A stretch of DNA of 24,229 nt from a virus: positions 1 through 24,229 of IMG/VR virus record IMGVR_UViG_3300022857_000068, one strand, 5' to 3'. Positions within the stretch are counted from its first letter, which is position 1; each line of letters starts with the position of its first letter. Below the pieces are notes generated by a model. It was given only the letters and a program-made list of their open reading frames with translations. It was not told the origin of the DNA and made no database searches. Positions 2,125 through 21,634 of this stretch are shown piece after piece. Both the position numbers and the translations under genes were made by a program.

Positions 2125-2575
2125 GGAAGTATCTGATTTTTATTTTTTAAAAATGGCTTTACTTGTCTCTGAACGTGGTACTTGCGCACGTAGAAAAGTT
2201 GGTAGTATATTTGTTAATAAAAAAAATCATGTTATAGCTACAGGATATAATGGAAATCCAAGTGGCTTTACTCATTGTACAGATAAACCTTGTGCAGGTG
2301 CTAAATCTAAATCAGGTACAGATTTAGATAAATGTGAAGCAATACATGCTGAGCAAAATGCTTTACTTCAATGTAAAGACGTTCATGAAATAGATAGAGT
2401 TTATTGTACTCTATCTCCCTGTATTCATTGTGTCAAGTTACTTCTTAATACTTCAACTCAACATATTATATTTTGTGAAGAGTATGTTCATAGAGATGCT
2501 AAAAAATTATGGATATTAGGTGGAAGAGAATGGAAATACATTAGTAAAAGTGTAGTTTTAGAAAGACTTAATTAG
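2117..2575 (+). CDS. dCMP/cytidine deaminase family protein (probable dCMP deaminase)
   Basis: This zinc-dependent deaminase of 152 residues is predicted to convert dCMP to dUMP. The zinc and catalytic motif HAEQN starts at residue 77 (H77, E79), and the second half, PCIHC, supplies C102 and C105. N-terminal MALLVSERGTCARRKVG and ATGYNGNP match phage and bacterial dCMP deaminases. Additional Cys residues (C54, C59, C73) sit in a loop that holds a structural zinc in T4-type enzymes. The ATG overlaps the stop of the upstream gene (ACACATGGGTAG) and its own stop shares a base with the GTG start of the polymerase. If the upstream enzyme consumes dCMP, this deaminase may balance dCMP and dUMP pools, as in T4. 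Confidence 0.9.
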   Translation: MGREVSDFYFLKMALLVSERGTCARRKVGSIFVNKKNHVIATGYNGNPSGFTHCTDKPCAGAKSKSGTDLDKCEAIHAEQNALLQCKDVHEIDRVYCTLSPCIHCVKLLLNTSTQHIIFCEEYVHRDAKKLWILGGREWKYISKSVVLERLN

Positions 2576-4416
2576 TGTTTAATATAAATAAAATAAATGA
2601 AGCTACACTCATAGCTATAGATACAGAGACCTGTGATCCTAATTTAAAAACTATGGGTCCTGGTGGTTTTAGAAAAGATGGCCACATTGCTGGAATATCT
2701 ATATCAACAGACAGTGGTTATACTGAATATTTTCCAATAGGCCACGAAGGTGGAGGTAATTTAAATAAAACTAAAGTAATTGAATTTATGGATTATATCT
2801 ATAAATCTAATAAAAAGCTTATATTTGCTAATGCCATGTATGACTTAGAGTGGCTTTATTCACTGGATAGTCGCCTTACCGTTACTCGTCATCACAAGAT
2901 ATGTGACGTTCAAACGATAGAACACTTAATAGATGAAAATAAATTAAAGTATTCATTAGATAGTCTTGCTAATTTTTATTTAAGAAAATCTAAATACGAA
3001 GTTGAACTAGCACAAGCTGTACTCTATAAGTTTGGTAAACGTGCTAAAGTAAAAGAAAATTTATGGAGACTTCATGCTAATGAAGTAAGCGAGTATGCAA
3101 AAGAAGATGCTCTACTTACTTTAGGTATATATCAAAAACAACAGGCTAGAATTAAAAGAGAAGAAATAGAAAATATTGTTGACTTTGAATCTAGACTTAT
3201 ACCTGTTCTATTTCACATGAGAAGAAAAGGTGTTAAGGTAAATGTAGAAAAAGCACATAAACTTTATAGTGAATTAGAAAAAAGACAAGTAGAAGTTCAA
3301 TCAGTGCTAAATAGACTAGGAGGTACCGAAGTTAATGTATGGGCAAACGCCTCTTTAAAGGAAGCATATGATAAAAATAATATTAGTTATACACACACCG
3401 CAAAAGGTACTCCATCTTTCACTGCAAGTTGGTTGGAAACTCAAAGTGATGATGTTAGTAAAAGTATCTTAAAAGTTAGAAAGTTAGACAAGATTAGAAA
3501 TACATTTGTAAAGAATATGATTATTGATAAAGCTTCTAATGGAAGAATATATTGTGGCTTTAATCCAATGGGTACTGTTACAGGTAGATTTAGTTCTCAA
3601 TATCCTAATCTTCAACAAGTACCAGCGAGAGACCCTGAACTTGGACCGTTAATCAGAGGTTTATTTGTACCTGAAGAAGGTGACGAATGGGTTTGTGCTG
3701 ACTACTCTCAACAAGAGCCAAGAGTATTAGTTCACTATGCTAGTCTTAAAGGAATGGAAACAGCTATGCAAGTTCAAGATGAATTTAATAAAAATGATAA
3801 AACAGATTTCCATCAAATGGTTGCAACTATGGCTAGTATACCTAGAAAACAAGCTAAGACTATTAATTTAGGTTTGTTTTATGGTATGGGAAATAAAAAA
3901 TTAGCCTCAGAATTAGGATTAGATAGTGATCAAGCTTATGAATTATTTAATCGTTATCATGATAAAGTTCCTTTTGTAAAAGAACTATCAAGACAGGTTT
4001 CTAATGTGGCAAGTTCTAGAGGTTACATTAAAACTTTATTAGGTAGAAAAAGAAGATTTAATATGTGGGAACCTAGAGACAGTTGGGGTGAGAGAGCTTA
4101 TTCTTTATCAGAAGCACATTCTCATTATCCTAAACAAGAACTTAAACGAGCTTATACTCATACAGCAATGAATGCTTTAATACAAGGATCATCTGCTGAT
4201 ATTACTAAAGCAGCAATGATTAAAATATATGAAGCAGGATTATTAGATGAGATTGATTTAAAACTTACAGTACATGACGAATTAGATTTTTCAGTTCCTC
4301 ATGGTAAACAAAAATGTTTTGAAGACAGTTTACAAATCATGAAAACTTGTGTAGATTTGAAAGTGCCTTTAACGGTAGATGTCGAGAAAGGAGACAGTTG
4401 GGGTACTATAAAGTAA
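2575..4416 (+). CDS. polA: Family A DNA polymerase with 3'-5' exonuclease domain
   Basis: This 613-residue replicative polymerase starts at GTG 2575, which shares its first base with the preceding stop codon. The N-terminal DnaQ-like exonuclease is intact: DTE (D16, E18), NAMYD (D90) and YAKED (Y174, D178). The polymerase half has TGRFSSQYPNLQQVP, motif A DYSQQEPR (D376), motif B RKQAKTINLGLFYG (K428, Y436) and motif C HDE (567-569). Motif A carries QQEP in place of the common QIEL, a variant I recall from T7-like and marine phage polymerases. The position equal to E. coli F762 is Leu (L432). There is no 5' nuclease domain. The length is shorter than E. coli Pol I and typical of podophage-like enzymes. 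Confidence 0.97.
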   Translation: MFNINKINEATLIAIDTETCDPNLKTMGPGGFRKDGHIAGISISTDSGYTEYFPIGHEGGGNLNKTKVIEFMDYIYKSNKKLIFANAMYDLEWLYSLDSRLTVTRHHKICDVQTIEHLIDENKLKYSLDSLANFYLRKSKYEVELAQAVLYKFGKRAKVKENLWRLHANEVSEYAKEDALLTLGIYQKQQARIKREEIENIVDFESRLIPVLFHMRRKGVKVNVEKAHKLYSELEKRQVEVQSVLNRLGGTEVNVWANASLKEAYDKNNISYTHTAKGTPSFTASWLETQSDDVSKSILKVRKLDKIRNTFVKNMIIDKASNGRIYCGFNPMGTVTGRFSSQYPNLQQVPARDPELGPLIRGLFVPEEGDEWVCADYSQQEPRVLVHYASLKGMETAMQVQDEFNKNDKTDFHQMVATMASIPRKQAKTINLGLFYGMGNKKLASELGLDSDQAYELFNRYHDKVPFVKELSRQVSNVASSRGYIKTLLGRKRRFNMWEPRDSWGERAYSLSEAHSHYPKQELKRAYTHTAMNALIQGSSADITKAAMIKIYEAGLLDEIDLKLTVHDELDFSVPHGKQKCFEDSLQIMKTCVDLKVPLTVDVEKGDSWGTIK

Positions 4417-4560
4417 ATGAAAATAGGTGTTAATTCTAATTTACAATTGAGATTAAAAATTGATGAATTAAAAAAACAATTAGAATTAGAAACTACCAAA
4501 AGAAAAATAGCTGAGAATAAGCTAAAAAAGTATGAAAATAGGATTTCTAGGACTAGGTAA
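4417..4560 (+). CDS. Small coiled-coil protein, 47 residues
   Basis: The ATG follows directly on the polymerase stop codon (TAAATG) and the frame stays open for 47 codons, ending inside the next gene with a 29-base overlap. The protein is Leu/Lys/Glu-rich, with LRLKIDELKKQLELE reading as a short heptad coiled coil. No family is recognised. Tight spacing on both sides argues for translation coupled to the polymerase, but the product is too short to be certain, and AT-rich sequence gives Lys/Glu-rich frames easily. Confidence 0.5.
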   Translation: MKIGVNSNLQLRLKIDELKKQLELETTKRKIAENKLKKYENRISRTR

Positions 4561-5794
4561 GTTAGGACTTCCAGTAGCTCTTGCTGTAGAAAGTAAAGGA
4601 CATCAAGTCATCGGAACTGATATTAATGAAACTACATTAAGAAATATTAGATTTAAAACTTTATCTTACAGAGAAGAAGGTGCTGAAGAATTATTAAAAA
4701 CATCTAAACTTCAATTAAAACCCTTAGATAAAATTGTTGAAGAATCAGATATTATATTTGTACCGATACAAACTCCTCATGAAAAAAAGTATGAAGGTAT
4801 TACAAGAATTCCTGAAGAACGTGCTGATTTTAATTATGAATTTTTAATCAATGGAATAAAGGAACTCAATGAAGAAATCGAAAAACAAGGGAAAGATAAA
4901 ACTGTTATTATTATTTCTACTGTCTTGCCTGGTACTATTTCAAAGTTTATTAAACCAATTCTTGGCACTCATTTAAAACTTTGTTATAACCCATTTTTTA
5001 TAGCAATGGGAACTACTATTAAAGATTTTTTATTTAGTGAAATGATTCTATTTGGAGTAGATGACGAGGGTGCAGCAAAACAGGCTCAAAAATTTTATAA
5101 GACTATTAATAAAGCTCCATTTCATAAAACAACTTTAGAAAATGCAGAATTGATTAAAGTAGTTTATAATACTTTTATTTCAACTAAAATTGCTATGATG
5201 AATACAGTTATGGAAACTTGCCATCATTTACCTAATACTGATGTTGATGACGTAACAGAAGCTTTATCTAAATGTGATAATAGAATTATAAGTAAAAAAT
5301 ATTTATATGGAGGTATGGGAGATGGAGGTGGTTGTCACCCTAGAGATAATATAGCTCTCAGTTATCTAGCTCGCAAATTTAAGTTATCTTACAACTGGTA
5401 TGATAATATTATGAAACAGAGAGAAAATCAAACTGAATGGTTAGCTGATTTAATTATAGAAAATAAAGGAGATAAACAAATAAATATATTAGGTAAAACT
5501 TTTAAACCTGAAACTAATATTGAAACAGGTAGTCCATCTATATTGTTGAAAAATATTTTAGAAGAAAAAGGAGAGACAGTAAGAATGTGGGATCCTTGGG
5601 TTGACGATAACAACATAATGAAAGTAAAAGAAGAATATGAATGGGATAAAGTTCCACAGTTATTTTTTATTGGTTGTAAACACGAAGTGTGGAAAGAGTT
5701 TTATTTTATGCCTGATTCAGTAGTCATTGATCCGTTTAGATATTTAGAAGTACATGAAAATGTAAAATACATACCTATAGGAAAAAACACATGA
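4532..5794 (+). CDS. UDP-glucose/GDP-mannose dehydrogenase family protein
   Basis: This 420-residue NAD-dependent nucleotide-sugar dehydrogenase oxidises a UDP- or GDP-hexose at C6 (UDP-glucose to UDP-glucuronate in the best-known members). The Rossmann motif GLGKLG is at residues 7-12. The central domain has STVLPGT, CYNPFF and AELIKVVYNTF with the conserved Lys and Asn. The catalytic Cys is C268 in GGGCHPRDNIAL, where the family more often has GGSCFPKD. The C-terminal domain begins at ILGKTFKPETNIETGSPS. The domain order and length are complete, so it should be active. It lies two genes upstream of an NAD-dependent epimerase, and together they could feed a sugar to one of the glycosyltransferases. 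The exact sugar cannot be told from the sequence. Confidence 0.92.
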   Translation: MKIGFLGLGKLGLPVALAVESKGHQVIGTDINETTLRNIRFKTLSYREEGAEELLKTSKLQLKPLDKIVEESDIIFVPIQTPHEKKYEGITRIPEERADFNYEFLINGIKELNEEIEKQGKDKTVIIISTVLPGTISKFIKPILGTHLKLCYNPFFIAMGTTIKDFLFSEMILFGVDDEGAAKQAQKFYKTINKAPFHKTTLENAELIKVVYNTFISTKIAMMNTVMETCHHLPNTDVDDVTEALSKCDNRIISKKYLYGGMGDGGGCHPRDNIALSYLARKFKLSYNWYDNIMKQRENQTEWLADLIIENKGDKQINILGKTFKPETNIETGSPSILLKNILEEKGETVRMWDPWVDDNNIMKVKEEYEWDKVPQLFFIGCKHEVWKEFYFMPDSVVIDPFRYLEVHENVKYIPIGKNT

Positions 5795-16987: not shown

Positions 16988-17437
16988 ATGGCGATAACTA
17001 TAGACCAGATTCATCAGACTAACGAAGCAACCTTAACCTCAATGGAAAAGAAGTTCTGTGAGGGTATAGCACAAGGAAAAGGTAAAAGAACCAGTGCTGT
17101 TGACGCAGGTTACTCTGAAACTTCTGCTCATGTACAAGCCGCAAGAAACTTAAAGAAAGATAAGATTATCCAGTACATCGATAGATTAAGGGTTGATGCG
17201 AGGCGCTTGACAGGTGAAAGCGTGTCTCAAGAGGTCGAAAAGCTAGATGTGGTGTACAAAGATGCTTGTAGCAAGAAACAATATTCCGCCGCGGTCAATG
17301 CGATAAGGTTGAAGGCCCAACTGTTAGGGTTTTTGATTGAGAAGAAAGAAGTACAACATAGTACACTTGACGCAATGAACGATGATGAGATGTCAACATA
17401 CCTAGACAAGATAGAGAAAGACCACAACATACAATAA
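16988..17437 (+). CDS. terS: Terminase small subunit
   Basis: This 149-residue protein is predicted to recognise phage DNA for packaging and to load the large subunit. LTSMEKKFCEGIAQGKGKRT followed by SAVDAGYSETSAHVQAARNL and LKKDKIIQYI matches the helix-turn-helix N-terminal domain of phage small terminases ('KFC..Y......A...AGYS..TA...A..LLK...V'). The helix VYKDACSKKQYSAAVNAIRL in the middle suits the oligomerisation part, and the C-terminus is acidic (LDAMNDDEMSTYLDKIEKD). The start has GTAGGATAATT upstream. Unusually, terL is 2.7 kb downstream, with repeats and other genes between. Confidence 0.88.
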   Translation: MAITIDQIHQTNEATLTSMEKKFCEGIAQGKGKRTSAVDAGYSETSAHVQAARNLKKDKIIQYIDRLRVDARRLTGESVSQEVEKLDVVYKDACSKKQYSAAVNAIRLKAQLLGFLIEKKEVQHSTLDAMNDDEMSTYLDKIEKDHNIQ

Positions 17438-17479: not shown

Positions 17480-17581
17480 ATTGACTTGATTGACTTGACT
17501 TGTGGTGCTTGTGCCTAGTTGATCAGCAAGGATCAAAGGATCAGTAGGGATCAAAGGCGCAAGATGGAGCAACGAGGATCA
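17480..17581 (+). repeat. Repeat block A: ATTGACTTG units and phased GATCA sites
   Basis: Two ATTGACTTG units (from 17480 and 17489) plus a further ACTTG are followed by GATCA at 17521, 17531, 17539, 17549 and 17577. The first four GATCA sites are spaced 10, 8 and 10 bases, close to one helical turn. The segment is clearly richer in G and C than its surroundings. It has no open frame of note. It resembles a clustered protein-binding region, perhaps for packaging or replication initiation. Block B repeats the design. Confidence 0.7.
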
Positions 17582-17682: not shown

Positions 17683-18063
17683 ATGACAAAGTTAGTAGAA
17701 AACAAAATACCTCTATCGTTTAGAGGAATAGCAGACAAAAAAGTTCTTTTTAGATTGTTCAATCCTAAAAGAAATAAATCTAAGTCTTTCAACATTTATG
17801 AAAAAGCTAGACTTAGTTCAACTATCAAACAAGCCTTCGATAATGAATATAGAAAAGTGGATATCGAGTACGATACAACCGCTAACCTTAGATTTAAAAA
17901 AGCTAATGTGTTAGTAGATGTGCCTCAGTATATCATTAAATCTAAAAAGAAGCTCTATGAGGAAATGCTTTCATCTAACAGAGAGTTTATGAAAGATAAT
18001 AAAGTACCTCAAAGTATTATAAACAATCAAAAATACTTCGAGCAAATAGTATCAAGCTTATAA
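17683..18063 (+). CDS. Hypothetical basic protein, ordinary-composition paralogue of the 18577 product
   Basis: This 126-residue, Lys/Arg-rich protein starts after AGAAAGAAGAAATAT. IPLSFRGIADKKVLFRLFN, then KSKSFNIYEKARLSSTI and RKVDIEYDTT are shared in order with the 18577 product (ISLSFREYANKKLLFRLVN, KSKSYDIYENAKLSTNI, RKIDIEYDTT). It uses a normal residue set including Gly, Pro, Gln and Met. It is preceded by repeat block A and followed by a GC-rich terminator hairpin, so it is a single-gene cassette. The family is not recognised; the basic character would allow nucleic-acid binding, but that is only a guess. Confidence 0.75.
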   Translation: MTKLVENKIPLSFRGIADKKVLFRLFNPKRNKSKSFNIYEKARLSSTIKQAFDNEYRKVDIEYDTTANLRFKKANVLVDVPQYIIKSKKKLYEEMLSSNREFMKDNKVPQSIINNQKYFEQIVSSL

Positions 18064-18100: not shown

Positions 18101-18174
18101 ATTGACTTGACTTGATTGACTTGATCACCGTTGATCAAGGAGGAAAGAAAAAAGTATTGAGCAATAGGGATCAG
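18101..18174 (+). repeat. Repeat block B: ATTGACTTG units and phased GATCA sites
   Basis: ATTGACTTG at 18101 and 18114, joined by ACTTG, is followed by TTGATCA at 18121 and 18131 (10-base spacing) and GGGATCAG at 18167-18174. The same components in the same order form block A. It lies between the terminator of the 17683 gene and the dinucleotide-depleted island, so block plus gene appears twice. Confidence 0.7.
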
Positions 18175-18303
18175 AATATAATAAAAAAATTGTTAGAAAA
18201 AGCTCTAGACCTTCCGTAACTTAAAAATATATTAAAACGTTTTTTTTTTTTTAAAATAGATTATTAATTAATTTTATTAATTAAAAAGAAAGTTAGACTA
18301 ATT

Positions 18304-18372
18304 ATGATTTTATACTTTAAAGACTTATTATTAATTCTATTAGCTTTATTATTTATAATAGTTATTTATTAA
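18304..18372 (+). CDS. Putative single-pass membrane microprotein, 22 residues, inside the island
   Basis: ATG 18304 is one of only three TG-containing sites in the island and opens a frame encoding a hydrophobic helix (KDLLLILLALLFIIVIY). It matches the microprotein at 12439-12513 at the framework M-x-L-Y-F-x-D...L-A..F-I-x-V-x-Y. No GG-type Shine-Dalgarno sequence is possible under the island rule; AAAGAAAG lies 11-18 bases upstream. The role is unknown. Confidence 0.5.
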   Translation: MILYFKDLLLILLALLFIIVIY

Positions 18373-18383
18373 CTAATATGAAA

Positions 18384-18458
18384 TTCTACTTATACTAGAA
18401 TAATAAGAATAAAGAGAGAACGAAACGAGAACAAAATAGTTTCTACTTATACTAGAAT
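18384..18458 (+). repeat. 18-base direct repeat pair in the island
   Basis: TTCTACTTATACTAGAAT occurs at 18384-18401 and 18441-18458, 57 bases apart. Each copy has inverted ends TTCTA...TAGAA, as in an operator half-site pair. They lie upstream of the 18577 gene and may bind a regulator. Confidence 0.7.
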
Positions 18459-18576
18459 TTAACGTTTTTTTATTTTACTTTAATTAAAAAATAATAGATA
18501 ATTCTATTATCTTTTAAAAATAAAATCTTTTTATATTAAAAGAGTTTTTAAAAGAAATAGAAAGTAGAAAAAAAAG

Positions 18577-18984
18577 ATGAAAAAAATAATCGAAAATAAC
18601 GTAGAAAAAAAGATAGTAGAGAATAAAATTTCTTTATCTTTTAGAGAATACGCTAATAAAAAACTATTATTTAGATTAGTTAATAATAAGCGTAGTAAAA
18701 GTAAAAGTTACGATATTTACGAGAACGCTAAATTATCGACTAATATAGCGTTAGCGTTTAATAATAATTATCGTAAAATAGATATAGAATACGATACTAC
18801 TAAAAATAATAGATTTAAAAAAGTAAATCTATTAATAGATTTAAATTCTTACTTAGATAAAAGTAAAAAGAATTTATATCTAGATTTATTAAATTCTAAC
18901 GATACTTATATAAAAGAAAATAAAGTATCGAACGAGATTATCGAGAATAATAAATATTTTCGTAATTTAGTTAATAGTCTTTAA
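18577..18984 (+). CDS. Hypothetical basic protein, composition-constrained paralogue of the 17683 product
   Basis: This 135-residue protein aligns along its length with the 17683 product. It contains no Gly, Pro, Gln, His, Trp or Cys and no Met after the start, because codons for these need GG, CC, CA or TG. Where the paralogue has IPLSFRG this one has ISLSFRE (Pro to Ser, Gly to Glu), and FNPKR becomes VNNKR. Conserved FRL, SKS, IYE and IEYDTT are kept, so the reading frame appears to be under selection. The ATG has no Shine-Dalgarno sequence. A perfect terminator follows 17 bases after the stop. The function is unknown. Confidence 0.8.
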   Translation: MKKIIENNVEKKIVENKISLSFREYANKKLLFRLVNNKRSKSKSYDIYENAKLSTNIALAFNNNYRKIDIEYDTTKNNRFKKVNLLIDLNSYLDKSKKNLYLDLLNSNDTYIKENKVSNEIIENNKYFRNLVNSL

Positions 18985-19001
18985 ATCTAACTAAAAGAAT
19001 T

Positions 19002-19036
19002 AAGCGTCTATATTAATTTATAGACGCTTTTTTTTT
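19002..19036 (+). terminator. Rho-independent terminator after the 18577 gene
   Basis: AAGCGTCTATA (19002-19012) and TATAGACGCTT (19019-19029) form a perfect 11-base-pair stem with a TTAATT loop, followed by a T-tract to 19036. The stem keeps to the island rule while being functional-looking, which shows the rule is compatible with normal expression signals. Confidence 0.85.
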
Positions 19037-19341
19037 ATCTTTTCTTTTCTAAATTTTCTTATTCTCTTTAATAATTAGCTAAAATAAAAACGTATTAAGT
19101 TTAACGATTTTTAATCGTATAAAGTTTAAAAACGAAATCTACTCTTTAGTAGAGAAAGAGAGAGATAGAGTGATGAATGGCTTAAATGTGTATAAATTTT
19201 TGTGTAAAAAAAAAATTTTTTTTATATAAGTTTATATAAAAGAACTAGGCGATATTCATTGGTAGGGAGACTTACTTGAATAGGGGTGATGGTGGGCAAC
19301 TTTTTTGTTTCTATAGTATCTAAAACGAAATAAATAAACAT
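19037..19341 (+). other. Gene-free leader between the island terminator and the glycosyltransferase
   Basis: No gene is supported. The first part is still inside the island, with two small hairpins (ACGAT/ATCGT near 19103-19117 and TCTACT/AGTAGA at 19138-19153). From 19171 the composition changes sharply: an A10-T8 tract at 19206-19223, then a G-rich stretch at 19261-19296 with GGG and GGGG runs on the plus strand, then TTTTTT. An 18-codon frame at 19174 has no support. A packaging, origin or promoter role is possible. Confidence 0.5.
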
Positions 19342-20193
19342 ATGACTATTTCGATTTTGCTTCCTACAAGAAAAAGGATATCTTTGCTTAAAAAATGTAG
19401 AGAATCATTATTAGATAATGCTTCTGATCCCTCAAAAATTCAACTACTTTATGGAGTAGATGATGATGATCAAGCTACAATAGATTTTTTAAAAGAAGAT
19501 AAACATCCAGCTAGGTCTGTAATAAAATTTCCAAGACAAGGATATGAGAACTTACATTTATATAATAATGCTCTAGGAGCCTATGCTCAAGGTAACTGGA
19601 TAATGTTCTTTAATGACGATGCAATTATGGAAACTAAAAATTGGGATTTAGAAATCGGTAAGTTTGATGGACAATTCAAGCTTCTTAAAGTAAAAGAACA
19701 AACAGGACATCCTTATAGTATCTTTCCCATTATACCTTATGATTGGTTTAGATGTTTAGATCACATAAGTCTCCATGGTCAAAATGATGCATGGGTCTCT
19801 GAGGTTGCTTACATGTTAGATATAATGCAAGACGTTGATATAAAAGTTTTTCACGATAGAGCAGATATTACTGGTAACAATAATGACGAAGTCTTTAAAG
19901 AAAGAACTTATAAAGAAGGGAACCCTGATCAAGAAGGTGATCTTCATCATCAAAAAATGGTAAATGCCAGATTTGCGGACGCAAGTAAGTTATCTTGGTT
20001 CCTTGATAAAATTGGACAATCTTCTTTACATTGGAAAAAAATTACTAAAAAAGAGATTAAACCATTTATTAAATTAGAAGAAAAATTTTTAGAGTATCAA
20101 AAAGCGGGTGCGATAGGAGCCGGAAAACAAAATGCAAAAATCCCAGATCAAGGAAAAGTTAAAGTCAGCTATTCAGATATACAAAAAGACTAA
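19342..20193 (+). CDS. GT-A fold glycosyltransferase (family 2-like)
   Basis: This 283-residue protein opens with the nucleotide-sugar-binding strand TISILLPTRKR, continues with a helix and YGVDDDDQ, and has MFFNDDAIMET at residues 88-97, where NDD stands in for the DxD metal-binding motif. A later HGQNDAWVSEVAYML segment fits the acceptor side. It is predicted to move a sugar from a nucleotide donor, either to phage DNA bases or to another acceptor; donors could come from the sugar dehydrogenase and epimerase at 4532-7212. The 3' end overlaps terL by 62 bases. A glycosyltransferase directly before terL is unusual. There is no clear Shine-Dalgarno sequence before ATG 19342. Confidence 0.8.
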   Translation: MTISILLPTRKRISLLKKCRESLLDNASDPSKIQLLYGVDDDDQATIDFLKEDKHPARSVIKFPRQGYENLHLYNNALGAYAQGNWIMFFNDDAIMETKNWDLEIGKFDGQFKLLKVKEQTGHPYSIFPIIPYDWFRCLDHISLHGQNDAWVSEVAYMLDIMQDVDIKVFHDRADITGNNNDEVFKERTYKEGNPDQEGDLHHQKMVNARFADASKLSWFLDKIGQSSLHWKKITKKEIKPFIKLEEKFLEYQKAGAIGAGKQNAKIPDQGKVKVSYSDIQKD

Positions 20194-21634
20194 AGATCCA
20201 AGAGCTTCAGAAGTCATTGAACATTTAACTAAGATACTATCAACTTCTAAATCGAGAGATAGTTTGTTAGATTATGCAAAGCATGTATATCCTGGATACA
20301 AGGATCCCGCACATATAAAATTAATTGCAAAAAATTTAGAGCTTCTAGAAAAAGGAGAGATAAATAGATTAGCAGTCTTTATGCCACCAAGGCATGGAAA
20401 GTCTATGCTCTGTTCAGAGTTCTTTCCAGCATGGTATCTAGGAAATAATCCTAAAGAGTTTGTAATTCAATCTACTTATGCTCAGGAACTTGCTGATGAC
20501 TTTGGTCGTAAAGTTCGTAATCAGATAGCTTCTCCAGATTTTAATAGTGTCTTTCCACAAGTTGGCTTGCGTGCTGATTCAAGTTCAGCTAAACGATTTC
20601 ACACTATGCAAGGTGGAACTTATTCTGCTGTCGGCGCCGGTGGAGCGATTACAGGTAGAGGTGCTCATCTACTTATTATCGATGATCCTATAAAGGGTAG
20701 AGAAGATGCTGAGTCCGAGACACAAAGAAGAAATTTAGTAGAATGGTATAAGTCAGTCGCTTACACTAGACTTCAACCCGGTGGAAAAATTATAATTATT
20801 CAAACACGATGGCATCAAGATGATTTAGCAGGCCACATTTTAGCAGAGAGTAAAGAAGATTGGAAAGTTTTAGACCTTCCTGCTATCGATGATAAAGGTA
20901 ACGCTTTATGGCCAGAAGCTTATTCTAAAAAAGATTTAGAAAAAATTAAAGATACAGTCGGTCAACGTGTATGGCAAGCTCTTTATCAACAGCAGCCAAG
21001 TAATGATGAAGGATCCATTATCAAAAGAGAGTGGTGGAATATTTATGATGGAGAAAAAATCCCTTCGTTATCTTATGTACTTCAATCTTATGATACTGCC
21101 TTCTCTACAAAAAGTTCTGCTGACTTTTCAGCTTGCACTACTTGGGGAGTATTCAATGCTCGTGATGAAAATAATGTACCTTACGCTGCAGCAATATTAT
21201 TAGACGCATGGAAAGAAAGATTAGAGTATCCTGATTTAAGAAAGAGAGCACAAGAGAGTTTCGAAGAATGGAAACCCGATCAAGTACTGATTGAGCAACG
21301 AGCCTCTGGTCAATCTCTTATACAAGATATGAGAAGATCAGGAGTTCCTGTAGTTACATTTAATCCAGATAGAGATAAAGTTTCAAGAACTCATGCTATT
21401 GCTCCCATGTTCGAAGGTGGGTTAGTCTTTACAATGGACGAAGATTGGACTAAAAGTGTATTAGATGAATCGGGATCTTTCCCTTATGGAAAGCATGATG
21501 ACATACACGATACTTGCGTTCAAGCTTTAATGCGTATTCGTGATGGCTTTTTAGTAACACACCCCGATGATCCTGACGATGAAGATTATGAACAAACAAA
21601 ATATACAAAAAAAGACAAACATTATTACTCTTAA
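20132..21634 (+). CDS. terL: Terminase large subunit
   Basis: This 500-residue packaging motor has both domains. The ATPase has Walker A PPRHGKS at residues 85-91, Walker B HLLIIDDP ending near 186, and IIIQTRWHQDDLAG as coupling motif. The RNase-H-like nuclease has D321 in SYDTAFSTKSSADFS, E388 in VLIEQRASGQ and D456-D457 in KHDDIHD. It pumps DNA into the prohead and cuts it. The start overlaps the glycosyltransferase, with AGGAG about 12 bases upstream, rather far. An ATG start at 20132 gives a normal N-terminal helix. The conserved motifs are intact. Confidence 0.97.
   Translation: MQKSQIKEKLKSAIQIYKKTKDPRASEVIEHLTKILSTSKSRDSLLDYAKHVYPGYKDPAHIKLIAKNLELLEKGEINRLAVFMPPRHGKSMLCSEFFPAWYLGNNPKEFVIQSTYAQELADDFGRKVRNQIASPDFNSVFPQVGLRADSSSAKRFHTMQGGTYSAVGAGGAITGRGAHLLIIDDPIKGREDAESETQRRNLVEWYKSVAYTRLQPGGKIIIIQTRWHQDDLAGHILAESKEDWKVLDLPAIDDKGNALWPEAYSKKDLEKIKDTVGQRVWQALYQQQPSNDEGSIIKREWWNIYDGEKIPSLSYVLQSYDTAFSTKSSADFSACTTWGVFNARDENNVPYAAAILLDAWKERLEYPDLRKRAQESFEEWKPDQVLIEQRASGQSLIQDMRRSGVPVVTFNPDRDKVSRTHAIAPMFEGGLVFTMDEDWTKSVLDESGSFPYGKHDDIHDTCVQALMRIRDGFLVTHPDDPDDEDYEQTKYTKKDKHYYS

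Follow-up and report, generated by a model that had tools for sequence, protein, structure and literature searches.

We found that a 955-bp island at positions 18216-19170 of the window is maintained by selection almost free of a single dinucleotide context, and that this clean zone is bounded by an operon made up of a hydrophobic micro-ORF, a gene termed P1 and a terminator. The window, that is the whole stretch of 24,229 nucleotides that was analysed, is a phage contig, carrying terminase and family A polymerase genes. Our leading explanation, which we put forward tentatively, is that selection has kept this transcription unit clear of the sites at which the phage would hypermodify its own cytosines.

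The island has a GC content of 18.2% and contains no GG, no CC, three TG (with T at 18305, 18379 and 18578) and one CA (at 18432); from 18580 to 19170 (591 bp) all four dinucleotides are absent. These counts, first given in an initial annotation of the sequence, proved exact on recount. All four absences reduce to one strand-symmetric rule, as had been proposed there: C never stands before A or C (CM), which on the other strand means that G never follows G or T (KG). In 5,000 mononucleotide shuffles of the island the forbidden steps numbered 86.1 on average (sd 6.5, minimum 63) against the four observed, so that equal depletion in shuffled sequence, which had been named as a possible counter-observation, was not seen. 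The dismissal of low GC content as the cause likewise holds, as the island is still rich in G after A or C and in C before T or G; the observed/expected ratio of CG is 3.5 inside the island and 0.63 outside, and GC, at 1.16, is not avoided. Outside the island CA, TG, CC and GG occur at 0.95, 1.02, 1.04 and 1.00 of expectation and the longest run free of all four is 55 bp. The nearest flanking forbidden steps are a CC at 18214 and a TG at 19171; both edges are therefore sharp, lying within two bases of the island's ends. Genome-wide avoidance is thus excluded, as had been argued from the sharp edges, and restriction or PAM avoidance across the genome was rejected because the motif is not depleted outside the island (0.95-1.04). 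KG/CM seemed over-represented in the left flank, but not after correction for composition (ratio 1.0).

The features of the operon and its neighbours are as follows.

16988-17437, + strand: terminase small subunit, which anchors the syntenic block on the left.
17530-17581, + strand: four GGATCA copies upstream of P2.
17683-18063, + strand: P2, 126 aa, a paralogue of P1 in DNA of ordinary composition, which serves as an internal control.
18216-19170, both strands: the island free of CM/KG, from dinucleotide counts and shuffles.
18304-18372, + strand: micro-ORF of 22 codons, MILYFKDLLLILLALLFIIVIY, a conserved hydrophobic peptide whose ATG breaks the rule.
18417-18432, + strand: leader motif AGAACGAAACGAGAAC, conserved in P1 operons; the CA exception begins at its final base.
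18577-18984, + strand: P1, 135 aa, a novel family, with no G, P, H, Q, W or C and no M past the start.
19002-19029, + strand: intrinsic terminator 3' of P1, free of KG/CM, which scores as a terminator on both strands.
19030-19170, no strand: right-hand portion of the island, non-coding and carrying CGTATTAAGTTTAA-like repeats; it has no KG/CM, and relatives are depleted in them.
19342-20193, + strand: GT2-type glycosyltransferase, right neighbour of the island.
20132-21634, + strand: terminase large subunit, right anchor.

P1 is limited to 13 amino-acid types because glycine, proline, histidine, glutamine, tryptophan, cysteine and internal methionine cannot be encoded under the rule. The three TG steps had been ascribed to ATG codons, and all three do lie in ATG: those at 18305 and 18578 belong to the starts of the conserved 22-codon ORF and of P1. 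The ATG at 18378-18380, however, opens a frame of just 6 codons and probably does not mark where a gene begins. A hydrophobic ORF of 22-26 aa is present in most P1 operons at -135 to -302 (at -518 and -521 in the long islands of loci L091 and L127), and among relatives its ATG is a recurrent exception to the rule. The Shine-Dalgarno region of P1 operons mostly lacks GG. An AT-rich stretch immediately to the left of the island is a candidate promoter, but it lies in CM-rich DNA, a point against our leading explanation. In many loci, L070, L094 and L214 among them, a TTGA/ATGA-like element containing TG is conserved about 55 nt upstream of the micro-ORF as another recurrent exception, and this is possibly a promoter element within the island. 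An exact 18-mer search with the leader motif returned the P1 operons of this phage group and a few unrelated contigs without an island; the same search of other phages revealed no island beyond this group. The GGATCA hexamer occurs 22 times in the window against 6.5 expected, with one further copy at 18168-18173, just left of the island, and the patch is conserved; these may be promoter, activator, protein-binding or packaging sites.

Structure prediction for P1 from 35 sequences reached a pLDDT of 50, and a P2-led prediction from 87 sequences reached 93.4. The P2 model, which is of high confidence, found no fold match in the PDB or BFVD, which points to P1/P2 being a protein family with a novel fold.

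Searches of IMG/VR with P1/P2 and the terminase large subunit (TerL) recovered about 100 further contigs with P1, nearly all of which carry the same island, 565-1,190 bp in length. Gene order is constant among them: TerS-(P2)-P1-(fdx-like)-GT2-TerL. Among 114 unique P genes, 49 P1 genes have no KG or CM at all past the start codon and P2 genes have 33-43 each, so the absence of GG and TG is kept in metagenomic homologues, the comparison that the initial annotation had proposed. P1 homologues down to about 65% identity are mostly clean. The shorter islands consist of about 100 bp upstream, the gene and about 140 bp downstream, and in L127, where the operon has an extra ORF of 60 codons, the island stretches over that ORF to reach 1,187 bp. 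This rule-obeying ORF (L127 3633-3815) was also seen in L126, L129 and L130, and L091 has a related long island; no Pfam family was found for the L127 ORF, and a ribbon-helix-helix identity considered for it was dropped for want of Pfam support. Many contigs among the TerL loci L110-L167 end in or near the island edges, which we do not take as genome ends because low coverage or repeats could cause the same clustering.

Neither the phage collection nor 84,980 cellular genomes yielded a homologue of P1/P2, and no island was seen in the nearest relatives in the collection (two Pelagibacter phages plus a complete marine genome, TerL 43-45% identical). Scans of up to 50 kb each in related or module-bearing phages (HTVC027P, HTVC023P, 023Pt_psg01, HTVC119P, HTVC200P, ctIqW946, ct3Et533 and ctUtU524) also showed no island. 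We conclude that the conservation of the island and its operon bounds are confirmed within this phage group. The initial annotation had further asked whether homologous islands might freely contain the four dinucleotides; most are clean, but there is a minority of relaxed lineages, several of them strand-biased.

In five relaxed lineages the counts of KG and CM in P1 are 0/26 (L160), 0/13 (L206), 1/16 (L120), 2/16 (L199) and 1/20 (L210). Relative to their own composition KG is depleted (p = 3e-6 to 3e-9, by a Poisson approximation) and CM stands at 0.6-0.8 of expectation. Over gene and leader (411-1174 in L160) these loci avoid KG on the coding strand alone, with CM near normal. Three other relaxed lineages, L078, L081 and L144, have no strand bias; L144, which shares its contig with L168, keeps the modification module described below. 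For a pooled profile we used 56 clusters at 90% identity, and since these clusters are related the observed/expected figures for KG/CM are descriptive: 1.01/0.94 far upstream, 0.10/0.47 in the leader, about 0.06/0.16 in the gene, 0.03/0.08 in the terminator, about 0.5/0.2 from 60 to 160 nt past the stop, and 0.87/0.86 further on. Since every KG of the coding strand reads as CM on its complement, it is the template strand that is stricter within the transcription unit, and this grading is confirmed by the counts. Past the terminator the depletion goes on with its strand bias reversed, which, like the unbiased relaxed lineages, counts against our leading explanation.

At the other end of the window lie genes that together resemble a cytosine-modification module.

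3-740, + strand: 3' part of a phrog_14998 protein, truncated where the contig begins; a candidate DNA sugar transferase.
725-1297, + strand: thymidylate-kinase-like P-loop kinase, candidate hmdCMP kinase.
1294-2124, + strand: pyrimidine hydroxymethylase of the thymidylate-synthase fold, predicted dCMP hydroxymethylase.
2117-2575, + strand: dCMP deaminase.
2575-4416, + strand: family A DNA polymerase (PolA).
4532-5794, + strand: UDP-glucose 6-dehydrogenase, candidate for donor-sugar supply.

The full module comprises genes for a C5-MTase-like protein, a MazG-like protein, phrog_14998, the thymidylate-kinase-like protein, the hydroxymethylase, dCMP deaminase, PolA and UDP-glucose dehydrogenase. 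It is present in all four contigs that reach both regions, namely three others, in which the series from the C5-MTase-like gene to PolA is complete, and the window, whose first genes are cut by the contig start; the contig of L168 ends within PolA. The best PDB match of the hydroxymethylase is the CMP 5-hydroxymethylase MilA (E 3.5e-25), far above thymidylate synthases, and the protein has Asp in the T4 gp42 column that tells dCMP hydroxymethylase from thymidylate synthase, so an enzyme of the dCMP type is predicted. The MazG-like, thymidylate-kinase-like and dCMP deaminase genes are adjacent and supply the supporting pool enzymes of the T4 type, with predicted substrates. With these genes beside the hydroxymethylase, cytosine modification is likely in this phage group, a judgement made from gene content. 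The island is absent from four other complete phage genomes that have the hydroxymethylase and from one that has both the hydroxymethylase and phrog_14998, so the module alone does not require an island.

Relatives of phrog_14998 occur in T4-like Aeromonas, Erwinia and Providencia phages and others; two lie beside a UDP-galactopyranose mutase gene and two records call the protein a glycosyltransferase. The family, also seen at L243-L249, looks like an uncharacterised family of DNA sugar transferases. Comparison with T4 beta-GT gave an hhalign probability of 1.5% and a profile search of the PDB gave no match; a resemblance of the C-terminus to T4 beta-GT noted by eye was discarded, as neither search supported it. 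Genome G003 encodes, at L106 8815-9873, a C5-MTase-like protein whose active-site motif reads NPPC, and G004 has a relative; the G003 protein, in a phage predicted to use hydroxymethylcytosine, might act in CM context or use an unusual donor.

Could the island have arisen by mutation? Directed C-to-T change before A or C was one of the candidates of the initial annotation; a deaminase or a RIP-like process could act in this way on a duplicated gene, and P1 and P2 are indeed tandem paralogues in which TA is the commonest single fate of both CA (28% of cells) and TG (36%). Most changes are nevertheless of other kinds: C is kept by a change of the next base, to CT or CG, in 24% of CA cells, and the CC of P2 is resolved mostly without C-to-T change. 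CG stands at 38 per kb in P1 against 8.7 expected (4.4-fold) and 16 in P2, and 14 unique P1 genes have ACG where the start is expected, with no in-frame ATG (the start being assigned by inference). Since a C-to-T process would make neither CG nor ACG, it is excluded as the main cause. Coding function has also been retained, the ORF being intact in all 49 unique zero-exception genes and P1 evolving under purifying selection (median dN/dS 0.17 over 227 pairs), while P2 is untouched and the island is present in most contigs that lack P2. We therefore regard local hypermutation as very improbable. The chance of import from a globally biased replicon, another of the original candidates, or of an assembly artefact, is negligible. 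Sharp edges and a composition unlike that of the flanks would suit either, but the island lies at one syntenic position in about 100 contigs, drawn from many metagenomes, is sharp-edged in each, adjoins the ordinary P2 and is shared by divergent P1 genes that have no homologue in the phage collection or the cellular genomes searched. The variable location and patchy distribution of a mobile element were not seen. Recent import and artefact are thus excluded.

The remaining alternatives accept selection. If the P1 transcript shunned UG and GG (and CA and CC) to evade an endoribonuclease or RNA-binding factor present during infection, the clean unit would be expected to track a transcript, as it does, and the avoidance of coding-strand KG only in L160, L120, L206 and L210 would follow. 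We consider this unlikely, because CA and CC are equally absent in most lineages, which an RNA rule does not predict, and the depletion reaches DNA upstream of the micro-ORF and 3' past the terminator; we know of no ribonuclease that prefers a UG/GG-type pair. We give similarly little weight to a phage or host nuclease that cuts CM/KG here, for example at a packaging site or a first-entering end, from which sites would have been lost. One rule that is the same on both strands fits such an enzyme, packaging signals often lie between TerS and TerL, where the island is, and the early-entering (first-step-transfer) DNA of phage T5 lacks restriction sites such as EcoRI. Protection nevertheless tracks the operon, taking in the inserted ORF, and one strand is kept more strictly than the other; moreover, with a site of just 2 bp such a nuclease would also destroy all remaining DNA of the phage if this lacked protection, so that modification is needed again. 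The original suggestion of protection from an enzyme that reads KG holds in broad terms: the single context, the modification module and the selected avoidance agree with it, but the phage's own modifying enzyme is a likelier reader than a nuclease. Finally, an AEP-type primase, a terminase or a coating protein might have to miss a short site over about 1 kb in a replication or packaging zone. The sites used by primases are very short, an AEP-like primase is encoded in G003, and lagging-strand priming would fit the strand bias; the clean zone is, however, centred on P1 and not on its non-coding part, and it spans the inserted ORF, which makes this explanation improbable.

Avoidance of the phage's own modification would account for these observations as follows. 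The phage would make 5-hydroxymethylcytosine and decorate C before A or C on either strand, the candidates for the decorating step being phrog_14998, as a sugar transferase, and the C5-MTase-like enzyme. We infer the CM context from the island itself; such a context would explain all four absent dinucleotides at once. Bulky modifications in the major groove are reported to block bacterial RNA polymerase, a block attributed mainly to promoters; for T7 RNA polymerase, marks on the template strand are reported to matter more (PMC11550810). An unadapted host RNA polymerase could thus be hindered by bulky marks on the template strand, and a first operon needed from modified virion DNA would have to carry none. 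P1 would act early, possibly aiding transcription of the modified genome, and P2 would be made later, from ordinary DNA. Given that the clean zone takes in a transcription unit and that the rule is tightest on the template strand, the island would most simply be the first operon that has to be read from modified incoming DNA. That it is a dedicated modification-free beachhead, readable in this way by unadapted host polymerase, is possible but somewhat doubtful. Host RNA polymerase can transcribe T4 DNA that carries glucosylated hydroxymethylcytosine. This, together with the attribution of the block mainly to promoters, limits the first-operon reading.

The P1-island phages are a widespread, uncultured group in which a DNA-level dinucleotide rule, extending over coding and non-coding DNA, has confined a protein to 13 amino-acid types and imposed an ACG start in some lineages. 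If avoidance of self-modification is the cause, base hypermodification has a fitness cost, paid when incoming modified DNA is transcribed, and the sequence context of a modification enzyme leaves a footprint that the genome sequence by itself is enough to reveal. P1 and P2 make a natural matched pair for the effect of modified templates on transcription, and P1/P2 (novel fold) and phrog_14998 (DNA sugar transferase) are candidate new families.

We found no described precedent for the island among the open-access papers searched. A dinucleotide context, TG/TC, has been proposed for hypermodification derived from 5hmdU in Pseudomonas M6, Salmonella ViI and Delftia phi W-14 (PMC6449724), which resemble the present phages in combining a hydroxymethylase and nucleotide kinase set with modification in a dinucleotide context. 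Those phages modify thymine, whereas cytosine would be the target here, and the parts of that account available to us describe no site-free operon. In gene content the present phages are like the T4-type 5hmC phages, with dCMP hydroxymethylase, dCMP deaminase, a MazG-type pyrophosphatase, a kinase, a candidate sugar transferase and a UDP-sugar enzyme, but unlike T4 their candidate transferase has no detectable homology to beta-GT. To our knowledge T4 has no island comparable to this one. Arabinosylation of the RB69 type is found among the T4-type 5hmC phages with DNA sugar transferases (PMC6024577). The cytosine carboxymethyltransferase CmoX of Synechococcus phage S-B43 is, like the proteins of G003 and G004, a phage enzyme of the C5-MTase type; its context is GC (PMC12783734), a dinucleotide that the island does not avoid. 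A further parallel to the selection described here is restriction-site avoidance in phage genomes such as that of T5, where enzyme sites are stripped from DNA that must stay usable early in infection. The island differs from it in that the site is only 2 bp long, nearly all copies are gone from about 1 kb of DNA, a single operon is affected and seven amino-acid types have been lost.
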